From assembly GCA_027028505.1 (NCBI GenBank), contig JALVJE010000071.1, forward strand, positions 1 to 38,733: DNA of 38,733 bases. The letters are read 5' to 3'. Of this stretch, positions 7,103-19,602 are shown piece after piece. Position 1 is the stretch's first letter; the number at the start of each line of letters is the position of its first letter. The stretch is from Bacteroidales bacterium (lineage in GTDB: Bacteria > Bacteroidota > Bacteroidia > Bacteroidales > VadinHA17). The notes below the pieces were generated by a model. That model was given only the letters and a program-made list of their open reading frames with translations. It ran no database searches and was not told the DNA's origin. A program made the translations under genes and the position numbers.

Positions 7103-7984
7103 TCAAAGATGGTAAAACTGCCGGATCTTTTCACGTATTTTTTCCATCAGCCATCCTGGGGTGGAGGTGGCGCCGCTGATGCCAATTTTTTCCGGATGGC
7201 CGGGGAGGGGCAGCTCGAGCTCTTCCGGCAGACTCACAAAGATGGTGTTGGGGTTGGTCCTGCGGCATATATCGTAGAGGTATTTACCGTTGGAGCTGTT
7301 GCGGCCGCTGACGAAGATCATCAGGTCGTGTTCGCGGGCGAAAGCCTCCAGCTCGGGTGCCCTGTTGGAGACCTGTGAGCAGATGGTGTTGTAGCTGATG
7401 AAAGGAGCGGGCTCCTGGTCGCCGGCTTCGCGTATGCGGCGCTGGATCTCTTTCTTCAGCTGCTCGTACTGGTGGATGTCGCGGGTGGTCTGGGAGTAGA
7501 GATACACCGGCTTGTGATAATCGATCTTCTCCAGGTCGTCCTTGCTGTTGATGACGACGGCTGTGTTGCCTGTCTGGCCGATGAGGCCGATCACCTCGGC
7601 GTGGCCTTTCTTGCCGAAGATGACCACCTGGCCATTTTCCTTGCTGATCTCGTCATAGCAGGTACGTATCTTGTTCTGCAGATGGGCGACGATAGGGCAT
7701 GTGGCATCGATGAGGTGTATGTTGTTCTCGCGGGCGATGCGGTAGGTTTCCGGCGGCTCGCCGTGGGCACGTATCAGCACGCGGGCATCATGCAGGTGCC
7801 GGTATTGCTCATGATCGATGGTGATGAGGCCCATATCCTCCAGGCGTTTGATCTCCATCTCGTTGTGGACGATCTGTCCCAGACAGTATACCGTATGGCC
7901 GGCACGCAGCTCCTTCTCGGCGATCTCAATGGCATTCTGCACTCCGAAGCAGAAACCGGCATGGTTGTCAAGATCTATCTGCAT
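7103..7984 (-). CDS. ispH: 4-hydroxy-3-methylbut-2-enyl diphosphate reductase
   Basis: LytB motifs: GFCFGVQNAIEIAE, DATCPIV, VSGRNSSNGKYLYDI, GISGATSTPGWL. Confidence 0.96.
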   Translation of the reverse strand: MQIDLDNHAGFCFGVQNAIEIAEKELRAGHTVYCLGQIVHNEMEIKRLEDMGLITIDHEQYRHLHDARVLIRAHGEPPETYRIARENNIHLIDATCPIVAHLQNKIRTCYDEISKENGQVVIFGKKGHAEVIGLIGQTGNTAVVINSKDDLEKIDYHKPVYLYSQTTRDIHQYEQLKKEIQRRIREAGDQEPAPFISYNTICSQVSNRAPELEAFAREHDLMIFVSGRNSSNGKYLYDICRRTNPNTIFVSLPEELELPLPGHPEKIGISGATSTPGWLMEKIREKIRQFYHL

Positions 7985-8690
7985 CTTTCTTTTCTTTTTC
8001 TTCCAGTTTTTTCCGGATCACTTCTTTGATCCATTCCATCTGTTCTTCGACGCTCATATCGGAGTTGTCCAGTACGAGGGCGTCGTCCGCTTTTTTCAGG
8101 GGGCTCACCTCCCGGCCCGAATCGATACGGTCCCTTTCCCTGACGTTCTCCAGCACCTCTTCGAAAGTGATCTCCACCCCTTTCTCTTTCAGCTCTTTGT
8201 ACCTGCGTTGTGCCCGCACTTCGGGGCGGGCGGTCATGAAGATCTTGATGTCGGCGTCGGGGAAGACCACCGTGCCTATGTCGCGGCCGTCCATGACCAC
8301 TCCACCGTGGCCGGCCAGCCGGCGCTGCTGCTGCACCAGATGTTCCCGTACCTCGCGGATGCGGCTCACCTCGCTCACCCACTGTGACACCTCCAGGCTG
8401 CGTATTTTTTCCTCCACATTGCGGCCGTTGAGGAGGGTCACCGAGGAGCCGGTGGCGGGGTCCTGTTCAAAAGAGATCCGTATCTCCGGCAGGGCGGCGA
8501 TGAGTTTTTTCCTGTCGAGACCTTTCTCACCGATGATGCCGTTCTCCATGGCATAGAGGGTGACGGCGCGGTACATCGCCCCGCTGTCAATATAAGTGTA
8601 GCCGAGCCAGCGGGCTATGGCTTTGGCAAAGGTGCTCTTGCCACAGGAGGAGTAGCCGTCAACGGCGATGATGAGGGAAGGAGAAGACAT
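7968..8690 (-). CDS. cmk: (d)CMP kinase
   Basis: IAVDGYSSCGKSTFAKAIARWLGYTYIDSGAMYRA and GHGGVVMDGRDIGTVVFPDA. Start set at MSSPSL; overlaps the ispH start by 17 bp. Confidence 0.95.
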   Translation of the reverse strand: MSSPSLIIAVDGYSSCGKSTFAKAIARWLGYTYIDSGAMYRAVTLYAMENGIIGEKGLDRKKLIAALPEIRISFEQDPATGSSVTLLNGRNVEEKIRSLEVSQWVSEVSRIREVREHLVQQQRRLAGHGGVVMDGRDIGTVVFPDADIKIFMTARPEVRAQRRYKELKEKGVEITFEEVLENVRERDRIDSGREVSPLKKADDALVLDNSDMSVEEQMEWIKEVIRKKLEEKEKKDADRS

Positions 8691-8707
8691 AAAGATGAGG
8701 TTTGGGG

Positions 8708-8715
8708 CAAAGATA
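8708..8715 (-). promoter_or_regulatory. Bacteroidetes-type -7 element (TATCTTTG) upstream of cmk-ispH
   Basis: + strand CAAAGATA, 18 nt upstream of the cmk start. Confidence 0.5.
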
Positions 8716-8744
8716 AGAAATATGAAACTCGAAGAGGAAATGTT

Positions 8745-8853
8745 TGAATGATTGAATGATTGAATGTTTGAATGCTTGAAAACCACCAACCACCAATCCG
8801 ACACCCGATACGTGATACTGGCAACTCGATACTCGATACTCCTAACTCTGAAC
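8745..8853 (-). repeat. Composite array: octamers TGAATGNT (+ strand) then heptamers YNNNNAC (= GTNNNNR on minus)
   Basis: TGAATGAT x2, TGAATGTT, TGAATGCT; then CACCAAC CACCAAT CCGACAC CCGATAC GTGATAC TGGCAAC TCGATAC TCGATAC TCCTAAC TCTGAAC. Confidence 0.9.
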
Positions 8854-8855
8854 TA

Positions 8856-9920
8856 TCAAAGTTCTCTTCCCGGGAAGAGGTTTTTCAGGTTGGTGGAGAA
8901 GGAGATGTGGTTGGAGGCGCCGGCGAGGTGGTAGGTGGCGCGGCCGTAGCTGATGCTGAACTTTTTCAGTCGCAGGGCGGCGCCTATGGAGAAACCCACC
9001 ATGCCGGCGCGTGCCGGCACCTGCAGCTCTTTGCGGCGGCGGTAGTTATAACCTATGCTCACGACGAAACTCTTTACCGGAATGAATTCAAGCCCCAGGA
9101 TGGTGTGGCGCATGGCATTCTCGGCAAAACGGCTGATGCCGGAATATTCTTTTTTTTCCGGAAAGGTGGCATCGGGATCCTCCGGGTTCTCGGGATAAGG
9201 ATAGAGGAGGTTGGGTTTTTGCAGGTCCTGCAGGGTGAAGACAAAGCGAAAAGGGGCGTGTCGCAGTTTGGCCGACAGACCGGCACGTATCTCGAAAGGC
9301 ACCGGCTCACGACGGCCTTTCACATAAGGGGTTACCTGGAAACCTACGTTGCGCAAAAGGAGTGCGGCGGTGAACAGCTCATCACGCGTGTGGTAGGAAG
9401 CCCCCAGGTCCATCACCAGCCCGAACGACTGGTATCTTTCCAGCACCGAGAGGAGGGGTTTGAGGCTGATCCCCACCGACAGCATGCTGTCCGGGAGGCT
9501 GTAAGAGGCGGAGAGGTGAAAGATATATTCGGCGGCAGAGAAGGTTCCGGTGATCGTGCCGGTCTCGTCGGCGGCCGTGAAGCTGCCGTAGTTGATGTAC
9601 TGCAATCCGGCAGCAAAACAGACCGGCAGGGGGGTACGGAAAGCATAGCCCACACTGCCGAAGTTGATATCGGAGAAATAGTTGATGTAATTGAGGATGA
9701 TGTTATTGTTGACAGCCTCCCCCAGCAGGGCCGGGTTGGAAAAGGCGAAGTTGAGATCTTCGGCAGGCATAGAAGTGATCTTGCTGCCCAGGGCTGCTAC
9801 ACGGCTGCTGTAGGGCAGGTCGAGGAAACGATACACCCTCGTCCCTCCCGTCTGGGCAATGAGTGGGCCCGGGGTGAGGGACAAAAAAAGAAAGAATAAA
9901 AATGTTAAAAGATGTCTCAT
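8856..9920 (-). CDS. porQ: Type IX secretion system protein PorQ-like
   Basis: Signal peptide, YRFLDLPYSSRVAALGSKITSMPAEDLNFAFSNPALL and beta-rich outer-membrane pattern; next to cmk. Confidence 0.85.
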   Translation of the reverse strand: MRHLLTFLFFLFLSLTPGPLIAQTGGTRVYRFLDLPYSSRVAALGSKITSMPAEDLNFAFSNPALLGEAVNNNIILNYINYFSDINFGSVGYAFRTPLPVCFAAGLQYINYGSFTAADETGTITGTFSAAEYIFHLSASYSLPDSMLSVGISLKPLLSVLERYQSFGLVMDLGASYHTRDELFTAALLLRNVGFQVTPYVKGRREPVPFEIRAGLSAKLRHAPFRFVFTLQDLQKPNLLYPYPENPEDPDATFPEKKEYSGISRFAENAMRHTILGLEFIPVKSFVVSIGYNYRRRKELQVPARAGMVGFSIGAALRLKKFSISYGRATYHLAGASNHISFSTNLKNLFPGREL

Positions 9921-10009
9921 CCTCTGCAGGCAAAATCCGTTAGTTAGTCAACGTCAAAAGAGGGTTAAAAGTATACAATCCGTTTTTCCCCTGCAAAAGG
10001 AAATATTTA

Positions 10010-10017
10010 TATTTTTG
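10010..10017 (+). promoter_or_regulatory. Bacteroidetes-type -7 element (TATTTTTG)
   Basis: TAnnTTTG match 24 bp upstream of the 10041 start codon. Confidence 0.4.
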
Positions 10018-10040
10018 GGGACTGTTATCAAAAGACCCGT

Positions 10041-11069
10041 ATGGAAAAATATGATGTGCTGATCATCGGTGCCGGCCCGGCCGGTCTTTTTTGTGCCGAG
10101 CACCTGGCGGGAAGCGATCTGCGTGTGCTGGTGGTGGAAAAGAACGATGTGCCGGGAGAGAAGGTCTGTGCCGGAGGGCTGACGGAGAAAGACCTGGAGC
10201 TGTTGCCTGTACCGGACGACCTCATCGAGGTGCGCATGCATGAGTCGGTGCTGAAAGCACCCCTCGTGGAGATGAGGACGCAACATCCCAAACCGGTGCT
10301 CTTTACCGTTGACCGTAAGCGACTGGGCGCCTGGCAGGCAGAACGGGTGCGGGAACGGGGCATTGAAGTACGCACCGGCGTACGGGTGCGGCAGATCGAA
10401 AAAGACCATGTGATCACGGCGGCAGGGGATGAGATTGGCTACCGTTACCTGGTAGGCGCTGACGGTCAGAGCTCCCTCGTCAGGAGATATCTGAAGTTGC
10501 CGGTGGAGAAGAAGATCTTCACCCTGCAGTACCGCATCCCCTGGCATGACGGTCCCCGTTTCGAGATCCACATGAACGGCCGGTATTTCCATTCGTGGTA
10601 CGGCTGGCTCTTCCCCCACAAGGATGAGCTGGTGGCCGGCACCGGCGGCGATGCACGTTATGTGTCCCCGCGATGGATGAAAAAACATTTTCACAAATGG
10701 CTGGAGAAAAACGGTCTGGATGTCAGCGAGGCGGTGTATGAGAGCTACCCCATCAGCTATGATTACCGGGGGTGGGATTTTGATCCGGTTTTCCTGGCCG
10801 GCGAGGCGGCAGGCCTGGCGTCAGGGCTCACCGGCGAGGGTATCTACCAGGCCCTGGTCTCGGGGAGGGCGGTGGCCGACAAGATCCTGAAGAAAAGAGA
10901 CACCTTCCCGGAGATCGACCGGATCTTACGGTATAACGCCATACAGCACAAGTTCCTCGGTTTTCTGATCAAGAGCGGGCCTTTCCGCAACCTGATTCTC
11001 AACGGTATCCTGCTTTATCTGAAAGCCAACAAGAAGATGAAAAAGAAGGTGTCCAGGACACTGACATAA
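10041..11069 (+). CDS. NAD(P)/FAD-dependent oxidoreductase (geranylgeranyl-reductase-like)
   Basis: DVLIIGAGPAGLFCAEHL dinucleotide-binding motif, VGADGQSSLVRR, FLAGEAAGLASGLTGEGIYQAL. Confidence 0.88.
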   Translation: MEKYDVLIIGAGPAGLFCAEHLAGSDLRVLVVEKNDVPGEKVCAGGLTEKDLELLPVPDDLIEVRMHESVLKAPLVEMRTQHPKPVLFTVDRKRLGAWQAERVRERGIEVRTGVRVRQIEKDHVITAAGDEIGYRYLVGADGQSSLVRRYLKLPVEKKIFTLQYRIPWHDGPRFEIHMNGRYFHSWYGWLFPHKDELVAGTGGDARYVSPRWMKKHFHKWLEKNGLDVSEAVYESYPISYDYRGWDFDPVFLAGEAAGLASGLTGEGIYQALVSGRAVADKILKKRDTFPEIDRILRYNAIQHKFLGFLIKSGPFRNLILNGILLYLKANKKMKKKVSRTLT

Positions 11070-11078
11070 GATTCTGAT

Positions 11079-11756
11079 ATGTGCTTTGTCCCCTCATCCT
11101 TTCCCGGTGCTGAGGATCTCCGTCTGGCGAAGATCCTGTGGGATTATCATCAACTGCATCAGGTTCCTGTTCCCTCGGATGTGATCTTTGTCCTGGGCAG
11201 CCACGACCTGCGTGTGGCGGAGCGGGCGGTGGAGCTTTACCGTCAGGGGCTGGCGCCGTATATCCTTTTCTCCGGCCGGCGGGGAGCCCTCACGCAGCAC
11301 TGGCCCGTAACGGAGGCAGAGCGTTTTGCGGCCCTGGCCCTGGAAAGGGGTGTGCCGCGGGAATATCTTCTTGTCGAGCCGGAAGCGACCAATACGGGCG
11401 AGAATATCCGGTTCGGCTACCGCCTGCTCCGCGAAAAAGGCTTGCAGCCTGCCCGGCTGATCCTGGTGCAGAAACCCTATATGGAGCGCAGGACGCGGGC
11501 GACGTTCCTGCAACAGTGGCCCGGGGAGGCGGTAGAGATCACGGTCACCTCCCCGCAGATCCCTTTTGAGGATTATCCTAATGAGGAGATCCCCATGGCG
11601 CAGGTGATCCATATCATGGTAGGCGATCTTTACCGCATCCGGGATTATCCGGCGCGGGGCTTCCAGGTGCCGCAGGAGATCCCGCCGGAGGTGATGACCG
11701 CCGCCGAGGAGCTGGTGCGGAGAGGATATACGGGGCATATGCCGGAGGGGAAGTGA
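11079..11756 (+). CDS. YdcF/SanA family (DUF218) protein
   Basis: VIFVLGSHDLRVAERAVELYRQGLAPYILFSGRRG and VEPEATNTGENIRF motifs. Confidence 0.85.
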   Translation: MCFVPSSFPGAEDLRLAKILWDYHQLHQVPVPSDVIFVLGSHDLRVAERAVELYRQGLAPYILFSGRRGALTQHWPVTEAERFAALALERGVPREYLLVEPEATNTGENIRFGYRLLREKGLQPARLILVQKPYMERRTRATFLQQWPGEAVEITVTSPQIPFEDYPNEEIPMAQVIHIMVGDLYRIRDYPARGFQVPQEIPPEVMTAAEELVRRGYTGHMPEGK

Positions 11757-12177: not shown

Positions 12178-12804
12178 TTATTTCTTCTTTACATACTGAT
12201 GCAGGTATTCCGCTACTTTGTAGTGGTTGTTCTTTTTGGCGAAGGATTCGGCATCATCGCCGTCCTTTTCTTTGATGGAGGGGTCGGCGCCATACTCCAG
12301 CAGCACCTTCACTACCTCCAGCTGTCCTTCGGCGGCGGCGAACATGAGGGCGGTCCATCCGTCTCCTTTTGCAATGATATCGGGATCAGCCTTGTGGTCG
12401 AGCAACACCTTCACCGTCTCGGGAAAAGGGCCTGAGGCGGCATAGATGAGGGCAGGCCGCCCCATCTCATCGACGAGATTGACTTTGGCACCCTTGCTGA
12501 GGAGGTATTTTACGATGTCAGTATGACCGTTGTATGAGGCCATCATCAGGGCGGTGCGTTCCCCCTCGCCCCGTATGTTCACATCCAGACCATCCCCGAC
12601 AAGTCTCTTTACTTTATCCGTATCGCCGTTCATGGCTGCTTCAAGGAGCTGGTCTGTCAGGTCGGCCGCAGTGATGGCGGACGGGGCGGTGGAGGCCGGT
12701 TCATTTGTTTTTTCTTTTCTGGTCCGGCATCCGCCCGGGATGAGTAAAAAAGCTATGAGAAGTGCCGGAATAAAAAATGGAGGGAGAAAGATCATTTTCT
12801 TCAT
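12178..12804 (-). CDS. Ankyrin-repeat lipoprotein
   Basis: N-terminal signal with lipobox LIPGGC, then ankyrin repeats (GERTALMMASYNGHTDIVKYLLSKGAKVN, DGWTALMFAAAEGQLEVVKVLLEYGADPS). Confidence 0.88.
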   Translation of the reverse strand: MKKMIFLPPFFIPALLIAFLLIPGGCRTRKEKTNEPASTAPSAITAADLTDQLLEAAMNGDTDKVKRLVGDGLDVNIRGEGERTALMMASYNGHTDIVKYLLSKGAKVNLVDEMGRPALIYAASGPFPETVKVLLDHKADPDIIAKGDGWTALMFAAAEGQLEVVKVLLEYGADPSIKEKDGDDAESFAKKNNHYKVAEYLHQYVKKK

Positions 12805-12837
12805 GATAAGTATTGTTATAGTTAATAAAGTATATTT

Positions 12838-13923
12838 TTACTTAACAACGGGTGAAGCCTGACCCGGATGTTTATGGTGAGGATGGTTGATATTCCGTAT
12901 GTCATAACCGCTACCCAGCAGTATGGAGATCCAGCGTGTCTCCGGTTGTGAATGTAGGACGATCTTCATCACCAGGGTGATAGGCAGGGCGAGAAACATG
13001 CCTACGGGTCCCAGCAGCCATCCCCAGAAAACGAGGGAAACGAAGATGATCAGGATGGAGAGGTTCAGGCCTTTGCCCATGATCCGGGGCTCGATGACAC
13101 TGCCTATGATGAAGTTGACCGCCGCAAAAAGGATGGTTACACCGATGGCATGTCCCAGGCCGAACTGCACGAGGGTGAGGATGATCGGCGGGATGGCGGC
13201 GATCAGGGAGCCTATGCTGGGGATGTAGTTGAGCATGAAGGCGATGAATCCCCAGAGCATAGCATAATCCACGCCGATGAGGGACAGAGCGCCCCACAGG
13301 ATGATCCCCGTGGCGGCAGATGTGAAGGACTTGATCATCATATAGTGGTTCAACTGGTCATCGATCTCCTGGAAATATCTGAGTTTTCTCTCATCATTAA
13401 GAATGAAGAGGAGTTTCCGGTTGAAGACACTCGACTCAATAAAAATGAAAATGATGGTGATCAGGATCAGCAGACCGTTGGAGAGAAGGTCGCTGAAACT
13501 ACGCAAGGCAATGGCTACATAGCCCATGATCTTCCCCGGGTCAAAGAGAGAGTTCAGCTCATCCTTCTCAATGTTCATGTGAAGTTTCTGAGCGAGTGCC
13601 AGGAGGTTATCCCTTTCTATGATCAGTTTTTGATTGTAAAAGGGAAGCCGGGCTGAGAAATTCTGCACCGACACGGTGATCATGGTCACCAGCAGTCCTA
13701 TGAACACCAGGATAAAGAGGATGATGATGGTCAGGGCCAGCCATGAAGGCACACCCCTTTTGCGCATGGCATTGGCAAAAGGTTTGAAGATAATGGTGAT
13801 AAAAAGGGCCAGCAGAAAAGGTACGATGATGTCGGAGGCGATCTTTACCCCTGCCAGGACGATCACCAGGGAGGCCAGGATCCCCAGTGTCGAGACGGTT
13901 TTGTAACTGTGTGTTCTTTTCAT
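12838..13923 (-). CDS. AI-2E family transporter (PerM-like), copy 1
   Basis: Multi-TM; FIAFMLNYIPSIGSLIAAIPPIILTLVQFGLGHA and FWGWLLGPVGMFLALPITLVMKI. Start set at MKRTHSYK (AGGA upstream) rather than 13989. Confidence 0.9.
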   Translation of the reverse strand: MKRTHSYKTVSTLGILASLVIVLAGVKIASDIIVPFLLALFITIIFKPFANAMRKRGVPSWLALTIIILFILVFIGLLVTMITVSVQNFSARLPFYNQKLIIERDNLLALAQKLHMNIEKDELNSLFDPGKIMGYVAIALRSFSDLLSNGLLILITIIFIFIESSVFNRKLLFILNDERKLRYFQEIDDQLNHYMMIKSFTSAATGIILWGALSLIGVDYAMLWGFIAFMLNYIPSIGSLIAAIPPIILTLVQFGLGHAIGVTILFAAVNFIIGSVIEPRIMGKGLNLSILIIFVSLVFWGWLLGPVGMFLALPITLVMKIVLHSQPETRWISILLGSGYDIRNINHPHHKHPGQASPVVK

Positions 13924-14223
13924 TTTTCCTGGGATTTGATTGATTAGCGAGGTAAAGGTATCCCAAATAATACAAAATGAAAAGAACATGGCAGGAACAG
14001 AGACAGACCACCGTGTGTTCCTGTTCAGTTATAAACCCAAAATCAGCAATAGAAAATCGCAAGCGCTTTTCATTGCTGATCGATTAAGGATTTCATCGGT
14101 TTTGGTTATTCACCAAAACCGTGAACTCCTAGATCGGGGTTAACCCCAGCTAACGCATTAGTTCAGCTATTTTTTAGCTTCCTAATGCGTAATCTGGGAT
14201 AAATTTTTTCCGGTCCGGTGTTG

Positions 14224-15276
14224 CTATGTTCCCTCCGGTATTTCTCCTATATCGTTCATCTCCTCCGTACCATCGCCCAGCAGGACGGCGATCCAGCGCG
14301 TATCCGGGTTGATGCCCAGGATGATCTTGAAAACCAGTGTTATGGGGATGGAGAGGAACATGCCTACCGGCCCCAGTAGCCATCCCCAGAAGATCAGGGA
14401 GAGGAAGACCACCAGTACGGAGAGCCCCAACCCTTTGCCCAGGAGCTTGGGTTCTATATAATTGCCGATGAGGAAATTGACCGCCAGGAAAATGGCCGCT
14501 ACTCCCAGGGCGCCTCCCACGCCGAACTGTACCAGGGCCAGGATGATGGGCGGAATGGCGGCAATGAGCGAGCCGATGTTGGGAATGTAGTTGAGCAGGA
14601 AAGCGATCAGACCCCAGAGGACCGCAAAATCAAGACGTATAGCTGCCAGCAGTCCGCCAATGATGATCCCCGTGGCCAGAGAAACATAGGTGTGGATCAT
14701 CATATACTGGTTGATCTGGTGGTTAATAACATTGAAATAATGAATGTTTTCCTTGTTCCGGGCAATGGCTTTTATTTTGCCGGGAAGGATCTTGGTCTCA
14801 ATGAAGATAAAAACGACGGTCAACAGGATAAGGATGATATTGGAAAGGATATCGCTGAAACTGCTGAGGGTGCCCGAGACAAAACCCATGATCTTTTCCG
14901 GGTTCAGCAGGTTTTTCAGGGATTCGTCATTCTTCAACCCTATTTTTTTTGCGAGCTCGCTGATCTCGTTGCCATAAAGTTGCAGTTTTTGGTTGTAGAA
15001 ATCCATATTATTGGTGAAAGCGTTCACCGAGCTGCTGATGATCAGTACCAACAGAAGGTTGAACAGGAAGATCACTCCCAGGATGATGGTGAAGACCAGC
15101 CAGGTAGGCAAGCCTTTGGCATGGAGGGCATCGTAAAAAGGTTTCGTGATGATCACCAGGAAGAGGGAGAGAAGGAAAGGCACTATGATAGGTGTGGCGA
15201 TCTTCACACCCGCCAGGACAATGACCAGGTAAGCCATAGCTGCCAGGCCTACACGTTTTTCTTTGGTTGCTTCCAT
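14224..15276 (-). CDS. AI-2E family transporter (PerM-like), copy 2
   Basis: Clear paralog of copy 1: LLNYIPNIGSLIAAIPPIILALVQFGVGGALGVAAIFLAVNFLIGNYIEPKLLGKGLGLSVLVVFLSLIFWGWLLGPVGMFLSIPITLVFKI. Confidence 0.92.
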   Translation of the reverse strand: MEATKEKRVGLAAMAYLVIVLAGVKIATPIIVPFLLSLFLVIITKPFYDALHAKGLPTWLVFTIILGVIFLFNLLLVLIISSSVNAFTNNMDFYNQKLQLYGNEISELAKKIGLKNDESLKNLLNPEKIMGFVSGTLSSFSDILSNIILILLTVVFIFIETKILPGKIKAIARNKENIHYFNVINHQINQYMMIHTYVSLATGIIIGGLLAAIRLDFAVLWGLIAFLLNYIPNIGSLIAAIPPIILALVQFGVGGALGVAAIFLAVNFLIGNYIEPKLLGKGLGLSVLVVFLSLIFWGWLLGPVGMFLSIPITLVFKIILGINPDTRWIAVLLGDGTEEMNDIGEIPEGT

Positions 15277-15313: not shown

Positions 15314-17662
15314 TCAGTGGTTCGCCAGGGCCTGCAGGATATTGTTCCCTGCCGGGTTGCCGGGGTATTTCTCTTTCAACAGTGTGGCATAGTGACGGGC
15401 TTTTTCGCGGTCGTGCCTGTTCAGATAAAAGGTGGCTGCCGCATAGAGATAATCGTAATTGTCCGGCTCGGCTGCCAGGCATTTCTGCAGGTACTTTTCC
15501 GTCTCTCCGAATTTTCCCATCTGCTGGTAGAGGAGGGCTATGTTGTAGTTGATGCGGATGTATTCGGGCATCCGGCGGGCGGCTTCCAGGAGGTATTTCA
15601 GCGCTTCGTTGTACTCTTTCTTCTCGGCTTTCAGCAGCCCTATGTAGTAATATCCTTCGCCAAAATCCGGTTCTGCTTTCAGGGTCTCTCGCAGCATCTC
15701 TTCGGCTTTGTCGTTCTCTCCTTTCTGATTATACAGCAGGGCCAGGTTGATCCTGGCGGGGTAGAAAAGGTTGTCTATGCGGAGGGCCTCTTCATAGTTG
15801 CTGATGGCGTTGTCTGTTTGTCCCAGGTTGGAGTAAAGGATCCCCAGGTTATGGCGGCTGGCAGCGAAGTCGCCCATATAGAGCATGGCTTCTTTGTATT
15901 CCCGGAGGGCTTTGTCGAAAGCCTTCTGATATTTTGCCTCTATCTGTCGCCGGGGGAATGCCGATAGCCGGAAGGCTGCCTGTATGCGCACGGCTTTCAC
16001 GGGGTCGTTGAGCACAGGCTGGAGGGCTGTCCGCAAGGCCTGAGGGTTGTTGTTGGGCAGGCTGCGTACTGCTGCTTCGCGGATCAATGCCTCGGGGTCG
16101 GCAAAAGCTTTTGTGAGCGCAGCAAAGCTCTTTTCTCCGGGATAGTTCTGCAGAAGGGAGATGGCTGTAGCCCGTACGATGACGGGAAAGAGGATATCCT
16201 GCGACATCAGGATCAGGCTGTCGAGGGCGTCCGGGTCGCTGCGGCGGCCGCGGGCCAGCACCTCCCCGTAATGATGGCGGCGGCTGGTGCCATACCATTT
16301 GCGTATGTTCTGCTCTGCCCACCGGTCACTCTTGTCGGTGTGGCACATGGTGCAGGCGTTAGGCGTACCGTAGCGCATCGACAGGTCGGGCCGCGGGATG
16401 CGCAGGCTGTGGTCGCGCCGGAAATCGACACCCATGTAATAACGTCCCGGCATGTGGCAGTTGACGCATTTGGCCCCCTCGCCCACGGCCACGGTCTTAT
16501 GTCCATGGTCCAGGACCAGTGCCTGGCCGGGCTCCCCTGTTTTCTTGTGGAAAGTATGCCGGTACGTATCGTACACGTCAGCACGATGACACTGCAGGCA
16601 TAGCTGATTGTCGTCAATAGGCAGGATGACCTTGCCGCTGTGGACGTTGTGACAGTCGCTGCATTTTACCCTTACATGCTCCTGGTACATGTAACTCTGG
16701 GTAAAGGAACCCCACACGTAATCCTCGTCCAGGATCTGGCCGTCGGAGAAATAGTGGGGAGCGTTCAGCAGTTGGGGTACCATGTAATCGAGCATCTCCT
16801 CATGAAAATGATCCGGGGAAAAATCGCCCAGTACCGAGCGGCGGGCATGACAACGGGCACACAGTTTTACCTCGGCGGTGGTCTCCATGTTGCGGGTATT
16901 GACGGTGAGACCGTAGTTGATCCCTTCGGGGCGGTCCATCTCCGGCAGGTTGGCCCATTTGATGTGTTCGGATCCCGGGCCGTGGCAGGCCTCACAGTTG
17001 ACATCTATGTCCGTCCAGGTGGTGTGATAGGTGTGCCGGGCCGGATCATATCCTTTCTTCAGGTTGGTGGAGTGGCAGTCGGCACACATGCCGTTCCAGT
17101 TCTGTCCGTTGTTGGTCCAGTAGAGCCAGTTGTCGGGGGTGAGGTTCTCGTGTTTGTAGATGGAGTCGGGCAGGCTGTACCAGGTCTTGCGCAGGGTATC
17201 CCAGGCGATGGGCAGGCACTGCAGCCTTCCGCCGTCGAAAGGCACAAGGTACTGTTGCAGGGGGTGGACGCCGAAGGTGTAGGTGATCTCAAAATCACCG
17301 TATTTCCCCCCCGGACCTTTGGTATGCACGAAGTATTTCCCCTCTTTCCGGTAAAAACGGCTGCTGTCCCCTTTGCTGTCGGTGAAAGTAACATTGTTAA
17401 AGTTCCCTTCCACGCTCTCCGGTGTGGCAGGAGCCATGGCCAGGTCGTGGTCCGATCCTTTCCAGTCGTGGTATTCTTTGGTATGACATTCGATACACTT
17501 TTCTCCTCCCACATAGGTGGCCTCTCCGGTGGTGGCCGATGGGTGTTTTTTCTGCAGATGATATCGCAGCAGCCAGGCAGGGAAAGTAAGCAGCAGTGCC
17601 AGCGTGGCGATATAGGCGGCTTTCTTCCAGGGGGTGGTATGTAAGGGTTGCAGATCAGGCAT
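15314..17662 (-). CDS. Membrane-anchored octaheme c-type cytochrome with HEAT-like and TPR repeats
   Basis: Eight CXXCH motifs (CIECH, CADCH, CEACH, CARCH, CSDCH, CLQCH, CVNCH, CTMCH), one N-terminal TM, C-terminal TPRs (NAISNYEEALRIDNLFYPARINLALLYNQKGENDKAEEML). Confidence 0.92.
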   Translation of the reverse strand: MPDLQPLHTTPWKKAAYIATLALLLTFPAWLLRYHLQKKHPSATTGEATYVGGEKCIECHTKEYHDWKGSDHDLAMAPATPESVEGNFNNVTFTDSKGDSSRFYRKEGKYFVHTKGPGGKYGDFEITYTFGVHPLQQYLVPFDGGRLQCLPIAWDTLRKTWYSLPDSIYKHENLTPDNWLYWTNNGQNWNGMCADCHSTNLKKGYDPARHTYHTTWTDIDVNCEACHGPGSEHIKWANLPEMDRPEGINYGLTVNTRNMETTAEVKLCARCHARRSVLGDFSPDHFHEEMLDYMVPQLLNAPHYFSDGQILDEDYVWGSFTQSYMYQEHVRVKCSDCHNVHSGKVILPIDDNQLCLQCHRADVYDTYRHTFHKKTGEPGQALVLDHGHKTVAVGEGAKCVNCHMPGRYYMGVDFRRDHSLRIPRPDLSMRYGTPNACTMCHTDKSDRWAEQNIRKWYGTSRRHHYGEVLARGRRSDPDALDSLILMSQDILFPVIVRATAISLLQNYPGEKSFAALTKAFADPEALIREAAVRSLPNNNPQALRTALQPVLNDPVKAVRIQAAFRLSAFPRRQIEAKYQKAFDKALREYKEAMLYMGDFAASRHNLGILYSNLGQTDNAISNYEEALRIDNLFYPARINLALLYNQKGENDKAEEMLRETLKAEPDFGEGYYYIGLLKAEKKEYNEALKYLLEAARRMPEYIRINYNIALLYQQMGKFGETEKYLQKCLAAEPDNYDYLYAAATFYLNRHDREKARHYATLLKEKYPGNPAGNNILQALANH

Positions 17663-18197
17663 AGGTCTCCTGCGATTTACTGAAATGTTTGCGTTTGACG
17701 GGATGGCCCAGGTCCACCAGGATGCGGCCGTTCTCTATCTTCAGAGGATAGTAGTCAAGAGGCCTGGTAGCCGGCGGGTTGAGCACCTCTCCGCGGATGT
17801 CGAACATGGAATGATGGCAGGGACAAAGGAACTCTCCTTTGTCCTTGTCCCAGTCAATACTGCACCCCAGGTGGGTGCATACCAGCGAGACAGCGATGAA
17901 CCCGTCATCCTCCAGATGGCACACATAGAGCCGCCCCGACCGGTAGGGGAAGACCGATCCTTTGGGGATCTCAGTTACGGAGGCTATATCCGTGAAGTTC
18001 CCTTCCGTTTTCTTTTTTTCTTTTTTTCTCCCTGCCCCCAGGAAAGAAAGTCCCATATAGGTCAGCTCCGCGCCTGCCAGCAGTGCCAACCATCTCCAGG
18101 TCCTCCGGAAGAAAGAACGGCGCGAGGTGGTCTGCTCCTGCGGAGGCACCGCCGGCTCTTCCTTTTTTATCTTTTGGGTATTTTTTTTCTTTTTCAT
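17655..18197 (-). CDS. Rieske 2Fe-2S protein (quinol:cytochrome c reductase iron-sulfur subunit)
   Basis: CTHLGC...CPCHHS cluster motifs; N-terminal SRRSFFRR plus hydrophobic helix. Stop overlaps the octaheme gene start. Confidence 0.93.
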   Translation of the reverse strand: MKKKKNTQKIKKEEPAVPPQEQTTSRRSFFRRTWRWLALLAGAELTYMGLSFLGAGRKKEKKKTEGNFTDIASVTEIPKGSVFPYRSGRLYVCHLEDDGFIAVSLVCTHLGCSIDWDKDKGEFLCPCHHSMFDIRGEVLNPPATRPLDYYPLKIENGRILVDLGHPVKRKHFSKSQETYA

Positions 18198-18318
18198 TCC
18201 TTTGGTAATATTTTAATCTTTACGGCCCTTCCTGTCTGACTTGCGGCAGGTCATTATCGCTTTATCGCATCCTGCCTACCCTGCCTGCGGCAGGCAGGCA
18301 TCGCATTATCGCTTCATC

Positions 18319-19602
18319 TTATATTTTCCATGGCCACATCAGCATCATGCCCGGTCCGCGGAAGAAGATCCCTGTAAGGGAGAGTACCGTATAGGTGATA
18401 AGGAAAAATACGAAGACAGCCTGTACGGTCTCGCTGGGGGCCGGGGTATATTTTTTTTTCATCCAAAAGAGATATCCTGCAAAAATGAGCGTGTAGAGGA
18501 TCAGCGGAAAGATGCCATCGCTGATGAAGAGTGGCAGGGAGGGCATCCACTGGTTGAAGTGTATCCAGTATTCATCGGCGATGATGAGCAGGGGGGTCAG
18601 GAGCAGGGCGATGCCTGCGGATACCAGGGCCATCTTTTTCCCTTTGTCCGAATAGAAGGGTACCCCCTGCTTTCTGGGACTGTAGTTGATCCAGGGCAGG
18701 TAATAAAGGAACGTCAGGAATGTGAGGGGCAGCAGGATAGCTCCCAGCAGAGGATGAAAGTGCATCAGCATCTCCTGTATGCCCATGAAATACCAGGGGG
18801 CTTTGGCGGGATTGGGACTGTAGGCGGGGTTGGCCCGTTCACGGAGGGGGGCATCCAGGAAGAGAGCCAGGATGAAGATCACGGCCAGCAGCACCAGGGC
18901 CACGGCCAGCTCCCGCACCACAAGATGGGGCACGGTATTTACCTGGCGGGTGTCGCCGGTCCGGCCTCCCGGCCGGGGCGGTATCACACCTCCTGCACGA
19001 CGAACCCTCCAGAAATGAAAGGCCATGAGGATGATCAGGGTGAGAGGCAGGATCGCGGTGTGGAAATTGAAAAAAGTGAGGAGGGTGGTGGCATTGACCT
19101 CGCTGCCACCGCGCACCCATTCTGTCACGGAGGACCCTATCACAGGAATATATCCAAGCATGCTGGTGACCACGGTCACAGCCCAGTAAGAAAGCTGGTC
19201 CCATGGCATCAGATAGCCGGTGAAGTTGGAGAAAAGGATCAGCAGGAACATCGTCAGCCCGATGACCCAGTTGCCACTGCGTACGGGAGGATGGAAAGCC
19301 CCGGTAAAAAAGACGCGCAGGAGATGCAGGAAAGCCACGATCATCAGCAGCACTCCACCCAGATGATGGATGTTGCGGACAAACTGCCCGAAAGGAACCT
19401 CCTGCTCCAGAAAAAGGATGGAGTCGTAAGCCTGCACCGGCGAAGGAACATAAACAAAACGCAGCAGGATCCCCGTGACGATCTGCAGGAGGATCAACAG
19501 AGCTGCCATCCCTCCCAGTCCGAAGGTATGGGTGTACCTGAGCGTGGAGGCCGGGAGCTGTTCCGGGTGCAGGTGGAGGATGAAGTTGGTCTTGTTTGCC
19601 AT
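18319..19602 (-). CDS. Cytochrome b (fused b6/subunit IV type) of a bc-like complex
   Basis: FVRNIHHLGGVLLMIVAFLHLLRVFFTGAF, GYLMPWDQLSYWAVTVV, FNFHTAILPLTLIILMAFHFWRVRR, NPAKAPWYFMGIQEML. Confidence 0.94.
   Translation of the reverse strand: MANKTNFILHLHPEQLPASTLRYTHTFGLGGMAALLILLQIVTGILLRFVYVPSPVQAYDSILFLEQEVPFGQFVRNIHHLGGVLLMIVAFLHLLRVFFTGAFHPPVRSGNWVIGLTMFLLILFSNFTGYLMPWDQLSYWAVTVVTSMLGYIPVIGSSVTEWVRGGSEVNATTLLTFFNFHTAILPLTLIILMAFHFWRVRRAGGVIPPRPGGRTGDTRQVNTVPHLVVRELAVALVLLAVIFILALFLDAPLRERANPAYSPNPAKAPWYFMGIQEMLMHFHPLLGAILLPLTFLTFLYYLPWINYSPRKQGVPFYSDKGKKMALVSAGIALLLTPLLIIADEYWIHFNQWMPSLPLFISDGIFPLILYTLIFAGYLFWMKKKYTPAPSETVQAVFVFFLITYTVLSLTGIFFRGPGMMLMWPWKI

Follow-up and report, generated by a model that had tools for sequence, protein, structure and literature searches.

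A cytochrome b-Rieske-octaheme cytochrome gene trio

The DNA analyzed here is contig JALVJE010000071.1 of a Bacteroidales bacterium (VadinHA17 lineage; assembly GCA_027028505.1). It is called the window and is 38,733 nucleotides long. Positions 15314-19602 carry three consecutive genes encoding a cytochrome b, a Rieske [2Fe-2S] protein, and a membrane-anchored octaheme cytochrome c with fused HEAT and TPR repeats, which together probably specify a quinol-oxidizing complex. All three genes lie on the minus strand, a detail left out of the original prediction. The cytochrome b gene (18319-19602; 427 amino acids) is separated by a gap of 121 bp from the Rieske gene (17655-18197; 180 amino acids). 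The octaheme gene (15314-17662; 782 amino acids) follows directly, and its start overlaps the Rieske stop by 8 bp (17655-17662), exactly as had been predicted. An overlap of this kind makes translational coupling of the two genes likely.

The genes were assigned from open reading frame calls and Pfam, together with alignment for the cytochrome b and Rieske proteins, NCBIfam for cytochrome b, and an AlphaFold2 model for the octaheme protein. The cytochrome b and Rieske proteins matched Cytochrome_B (E = 2.8e-46) and Rieske (E = 8e-11). The 782-residue protein matched Cytochrome_C554 (E = 2.9e-12), HEAT_2 (E = 1.3e-10), and several TPR models, the best of them at 1.4e-16. Coordinates, Pfam matches, and motif count all agree with the predicted order of a cytochrome b and a Rieske protein followed by a membrane-anchored HEAT/TPR cytochrome with eight CXXCH motifs.

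Features of the cytochrome b and Rieske proteins

The unit is a member of the Rieske/cytochrome b (cytochrome bc) superfamily because the four axial histidines and both Rieske boxes are present. The heme b ligands of cytochrome b are H79, H93, H181, and H196. Among the sequences that cover the respective positions, H79 is conserved in 51 of 51, H93 in 52 of 52, and H181 and H196 in 53 of 53. The cluster-binding boxes of the Rieske protein read CTHLGC and CPCHHS, and the CxHxxC and CxCHxS patterns are kept in all sequences of the set. The Rieske N-terminus (SRRSFF) is twin-arginine-like.

Judged by its sequence, the cytochrome b is b6-like. The helix-D ligands are spaced by 14 residues in all 53 cytochrome b sequences, which is the b6-type spacing; the bc1-type spacing of 13 did not occur. 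The heme-ci position is occupied by glycine (YCLGG of Nostoc b6 aligns to FGLGG here), and the heme-ci cysteine is absent at the aligned position in every listed cytochrome b sequence. The quinol-oxidation (Qo) site motif is KAPWYF, with an APWY core that is conserved among relatives, where the mitochondrial motif is PEWY (PMC9162462). A b6-type N-terminal half and a subunit-IV-like C-terminal half are joined in a single chain, and the unit does not have a separate subunit IV. The top NCBIfam model was ExtP (NF040969) at 255.7 bits, under its cut-off of 290, and the second-best was ExtQ, which matched the C-terminal half. The quinone substrate is probably menaquinone because the hosts are anaerobic.

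The octaheme-HEAT-TPR protein

The octaheme protein has eight CXXCH motifs, at residues 56, 193, 223, 268, 334, 355, 399, and 437. All eight heme sites are invariant across 73 relatives, including a stand-alone subfamily of only 25-28% identity. Some members seem to have seven hemes, and heme loss was ruled out for them by a CX3CH motif in place of CX2CH, or something similar, at heme 8. Histidines outside the CXXCH motifs are fewer in the alignment: only six or seven are invariant or nearly so, for eight hemes.

AlphaFold2 modeled the full 782-residue protein with a predicted local distance difference test (pLDDT) score of 90.6 and a predicted template modeling (pTM) score of 0.86. The model begins with an N-terminal membrane helix (residues 11-38; 17549-17632), the only one predicted in this protein. 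The octaheme domain (residues 56-441; 16340-17497), delimited by alignment and the model, is interrupted after heme site 1 and before heme site 2 by a beta domain (residues 76-163). It is followed by HEAT-like helical repeats (residues 446-566; 15965-16327) and a TPR superhelix (residues 576-781; 15320-15937), both also recognized by Pfam.

The nearest solved structure to the heme domain is OcwA, both in a profile search (E = 3.6e-20) and in a fold search (E = 1e-6, with ~16% identity in the fold alignment). Weaker matches included c554, MccA, and NrfA-type cytochromes. The fold search was run on the heme domain modeled alone, since the matches of the full model were swamped by TPR proteins. 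This repeat-less model of the heme domain was poor (pLDDT 64), and its alignment was also shallower. The likeness to OcwA therefore appears to rest mainly on the independent profile search, the fold model being poor. The best reading of these sequence matches is that the protein is an octaheme cytochrome resembling OcwA and c554, fused to a HEAT-TPR scaffold. The drop in pLDDT would fit, weakly, a heme domain that is packed on the HEAT/TPR repeats. Such packing and the docking of a further redox partner by the TPR are equally compatible with the model, and either may be the role of the repeats.

Conservation and distribution of the trio

Scanning a single genome of each species gave more than 570 relatives, of which the best 80 were examined. 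A locus was considered assessable when its upstream DNA extended for 1.8 kb or more, which left 59 loci. The synteny check in related genomes came out in favor of the unit: the order cytochrome b-Rieske-octaheme, on the same strand, is kept at 53 of the 59. The relatives occur in Bacteroidota, Desulfobacterota, Calditrichota, Ignavibacterium (Ignavibacteriota), Gemmatimonadota, and some gammaproteobacterial bins. Among them are complete chromosomes, the Desulfobacterota isolates NaphS2, Desulfoluna spongiiphila, and D. butyratoxydans, and the isolate Thermophagus xiamenensis. At least five or six bacterial phyla have the three genes. The idea that the TPR fusion is a distinctive variant holds to the extent that the TPR is truly fused; the variant is widespread and not peculiar to this genome.

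The three genes are also inherited together. Pairwise distances of the three proteins are correlated (Mantel r 0.83-0.85), and none of 2000 permutations reached as high a value. This correlation reflects shared history, not physical contact. Within the bacterial family of the window, all 20 near-full-length cytochrome b orthologues (48-100% identity) lie directly before Rieske and octaheme genes. Within the taxonomic order, 13 of 198 genomes had a strong cytochrome b match.

Other cytochromes and possible electron acceptors in the genome

The original prediction noted that no c1-type gene is visible, and it would have been undermined by a c1 or a mono- or diheme partner elsewhere in the genome together with a lack of conserved linkage. 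The genome is a draft metagenome-assembled genome of 275 contigs and is 92% complete. Within it, neither cytochrome c1 (PF02167), which was detected in a Caulobacter control, nor the cbb3-type monoheme domain (PF13442) had any match, and linkage is conserved at the 53 of 59 loci. The absence of a c1-type gene thus extends genome-wide as far as PF02167 can tell. The operon contains no cytochrome f; no genome-wide search with a cytochrome f model was made.

Several possible acceptors and substitutes were considered. NrfA was discarded, as PF02335 gave no match in the genome. Alternative complex III was likewise rejected as a substitute, and no sign of it was seen, because the genome has only one NrfD-family protein, which lies beside a PhsA-like molybdoenzyme. 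The genome also encodes a quinol-type nitric oxide (NO) reductase-like protein and a heme-copper subunit. A cytochrome c oxidase was not retained as the acceptor, for the subunit-II-like protein beside one heme-copper subunit lacks the CuA cysteines. No known type of acceptor for a small cytochrome c was seen, since the candidates in the genome are the PhsA-like/NrfD, quinol NO-reductase-like, and CuA-less heme-copper proteins.

A proposed complex and alternative explanations

We propose, with a probability of roughly 0.8, that the trio encodes a menaquinol-oxidizing respiratory Rieske/cytochrome b complex of the Q-cycle type, in which the octaheme-HEAT-TPR cytochrome occupies the position of cytochrome c1 or f. 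By analogy with known complexes, the b6-type cytochrome b would oxidize menaquinol at its Qo site. The first electron would pass through hemes bL and bH to a quinone at the cytoplasmic side. The second would leave the Rieske cluster for whichever heme of the membrane-anchored octaheme cytochrome lies closest and travel down the chain of hemes to an acceptor in the periplasm or the outer membrane. The HEAT and TPR repeats would give the heme domain a rigid scaffold that may orient this domain or recruit the acceptor. Gene linkage, the overlap with the Rieske gene, the membrane anchor, and co-divergence all point to the octaheme protein being a subunit of the complex.

Other findings weigh against this proposal. 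When 11 other cytochrome b loci of the same taxonomic order were opened, six held the same trio, but four were Rieske-first operons with a different cytochrome of 7-8 hemes, and at one the 14 kb that were read showed a cytochrome b and no octaheme relative. Five octaheme-TPR orthologues of ~50% identity (L094, L102, L107, L118, and L139) have no cytochrome b nearby, and the only cytochromes b in their genomes are of other types. These five form one supported clade nested among cytochrome b-linked octaheme proteins and therefore look like the result of one secondary loss. A deeper subfamily of stand-alone octaheme-TPR proteins, the one of 25-28% identity mentioned above, occurs in the same bacterial family without a cognate cytochrome b. 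Because of this subfamily, the heme-HEAT-TPR architecture may be older than its pairing with cytochrome b. The TPR is fused in the trio, as had been predicted, but it is not special to the complex, as heme, HEAT, and TPR also occur together in these stand-alone proteins. Since octaheme-TPR relatives without cytochrome b exist, obligate membership in a complex is something we only infer. Lastly, a conserved acceptor gene beside the trio was sought across the loci and was not found.

How else can the trio be explained? An assembly artefact or chance neighborhood might be suspected of a draft genome in 275 contigs; it is refuted, as dozens of separately assembled genomes, isolates and complete chromosomes among them, show the same order. 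The stand-alone relatives lend themselves to another explanation, in which the octaheme-TPR protein is a separate, co-expressed periplasmic electron-transfer protein or terminal reductase that meets a two-subunit cytochrome b/Rieske enzyme by collision. Several of the solved relatives (OcwA and, more weakly, c554, MccA, and the NrfA type) are terminal reductases, and six or seven conserved histidines for eight hemes would leave room for an open heme. However, a freely colliding protein fits poorly with the membrane anchor, the translational overlap with Rieske, the close linkage, and the parallel divergence across phyla, and the b/Rieske genes have no other c-type candidate next to them. We regard this explanation as unlikely. 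In a somewhat less doubtful but still tentative version of the proposed complex, the octaheme-TPR protein would both replace c1 and act as a terminal or near-terminal reductase, so that the complex would be a self-contained quinol-oxidizing respiratory enzyme with an open heme or a TPR-recruited acceptor.

The resemblance to OcwA and the ExtP and ExtQ matches of cytochrome b could point instead to an extracellular electron transfer chain like that of Geobacter Ext, in which electrons would flow from quinol through the octaheme protein to an outer-membrane conduit. Yet neither a porin nor an outer-membrane cytochrome is found near the trio. ExtP is also the top model for b6-like cytochromes b of unrelated units and hence marks only the b6 type, and such a chain seems no more probable than collision. 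It is less probable still that the unit runs in reverse or serves a quinol-dependent detoxification of NO, oxygen, or sulfur species instead of main respiration. The quinol-type NO reductase-like protein, the CuA-less heme-copper subunits, and the PhsA-like molybdoenzyme with NrfD would suit such a role, but they sit on other contigs, are not linked to the trio by conservation, and can use quinol directly. The Q-cycle complex with an octaheme cytochrome in the c1/f place is thus our preferred reading.

Comparison with known systems

Multiheme partners of Rieske/cytochrome b were said in the original prediction to be known in other phyla, and precedents exist in Kuenenia and in the ext cluster of Geobacter. 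In two Rieske/cytochrome b complexes of Kuenenia stuttgartiensis (Kustd1480-1485 and Kuste4569-4574), hexa- or octaheme cytochromes replace cytochrome f (PMC12954380). A b6-like cytochrome b, a Rieske protein, and a membrane-anchored hexa- or octaheme cytochrome in the place of cytochrome f are shared with the trio. The Kuenenia complexes have a separate subunit IV, heme cN, an NAD(P) oxidoreductase subunit, and, in one complex, a hydroxylamine oxidoreductase (HAO)-like subunit, and no HEAT-TPR repeats are mentioned for them in the text consulted. In the trio, by contrast, these repeats are present, cytochrome b and subunit IV form one chain, the cysteine at the ci position is absent, and no NAD(P) oxidoreductase subunit is found among the adjoining genes.

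The ext cluster of Geobacter sulfurreducens (ExtO-ExtP-ExtQ with ExtM/ExtN) combines Rieske, cytochrome b, and multiheme proteins (PMC5877670, PMC2825233). It shares with the trio the Rieske protein, a b6-type cytochrome b with an ExtQ-like half, multiheme c partners, and the absence of c1. It has in addition several soluble c3-like cytochromes of 10 and 12 hemes and a porin, whereas the cytochrome b described here scores under the ExtP cut-off and the octaheme-TPR protein differs from ExtM/ExtN. In Caldithrix abyssi, a nap cluster includes Rieske and cytochrome b without c1, and multiheme acceptors have been proposed (PMC5317091, with reference to Dibrova et al. 2013). That unit is linked to NapM and epsilonHAO and not to an octaheme-TPR protein. 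Compared with b6f and bc1 complexes, the trio has the same four heme b histidines and Rieske boxes and a b6-like helix-D spacing, but it has neither cytochrome f nor c1 in the unit, no ci cysteine, APWY for PEWY, and a fused subunit IV. OcwA, the nonaheme outer cell wall cytochrome of Thermincola potens (6i5b), differs from the octaheme protein in heme number and has neither HEAT-TPR repeats nor, in the data used, a link to cytochrome b.

A multiheme partner for Rieske/cytochrome b is therefore not a new idea. An octaheme-HEAT-TPR partner and its spread over several phyla are apparently undescribed: a literature search on TPR, multiheme, and Rieske found no description of this architecture, the main specialist surveys, where it may have been listed, lying outside the search.

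Other Rieske/cytochrome b units and recurrent neighbors

A second Rieske/cytochrome b unit occurs in the same genome (L053; contig C15:1-20000 of G000). It consists of a short Rieske gene (7963-8373) and a gene (8658-11396) for a 912-residue protein in which cytochrome b is joined to an ExtM-like domain with 11 hemes (220 bits, under the cut-off). In ~10 other genomes of the family, a Rieske gene adjoins a cytochrome b-like frame of about 850-1060 residues, and direct reading of one of these (G013, L158) showed the 11-heme fusion. A sister genome (L157; G013:C93, 4618-7679) carries a third type, composed of a Rieske protein, a 347-residue cytochrome b with canonical PEWY, and a 512-residue octaheme relative of HAO/hydrazine dehydrogenase (PF13447), which recalls anammox complexes. 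Another type, found at the level of the order (L152-L155 and L044:4450-8371), encodes a Rieske protein, a cytochrome b, and then a 7-8-heme cytochrome of 670-730 residues; in L152, class I cytochrome c domains make up part of this protein. At L044 this unit adjoins a divergently transcribed octaheme-TPR gene.

Downstream of the trio in the window are two AI-2E_transport genes and then an ankyrin-repeat gene (12178-15276). Conservation of these tandem AI-2E-type permeases and the ankyrin gene is limited to near relatives. At 14 of the 80 loci as a raw count, in Bacteroidota and Desulfobacterota (L072, L080, L097, L118, L128, L130, L139, and others), a gene of the sulfatase family is found no more than 3 kb from the core genes; it matches PF00884 where scanned, often has the motif WGDDIGQ, and is in some cases accompanied by a HAD hydrolase. 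Seven loci (L080, L091, L097, L099, L111, L121, and L131) have beside the trio a member of a family of small proteins (about 150-190 residues, RPDGGY...DAGYFNP) that are exported or membrane-anchored; the one member scanned had no Pfam match.

Biological implications

If the proposed complex is real, it would be a recurrent bc machine of anaerobic Bacteroidota and sulfate reducers whose output is a multiheme wire with a repeat scaffold in place of c1. Its carriers would gain an energy-conserving quinol-to-cytochrome step. If the complex is also a self-contained enzyme, a proton-translocating bc core would be connected, with no small cytochrome c involved, to a substrate in the periplasm or outside the cell, and such coupling would span several phyla, including sulfate reducers. 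The cultured carriers Desulfoluna spongiiphila, D. butyratoxydans, NaphS2, and Thermophagus xiamenensis make these ideas directly testable.

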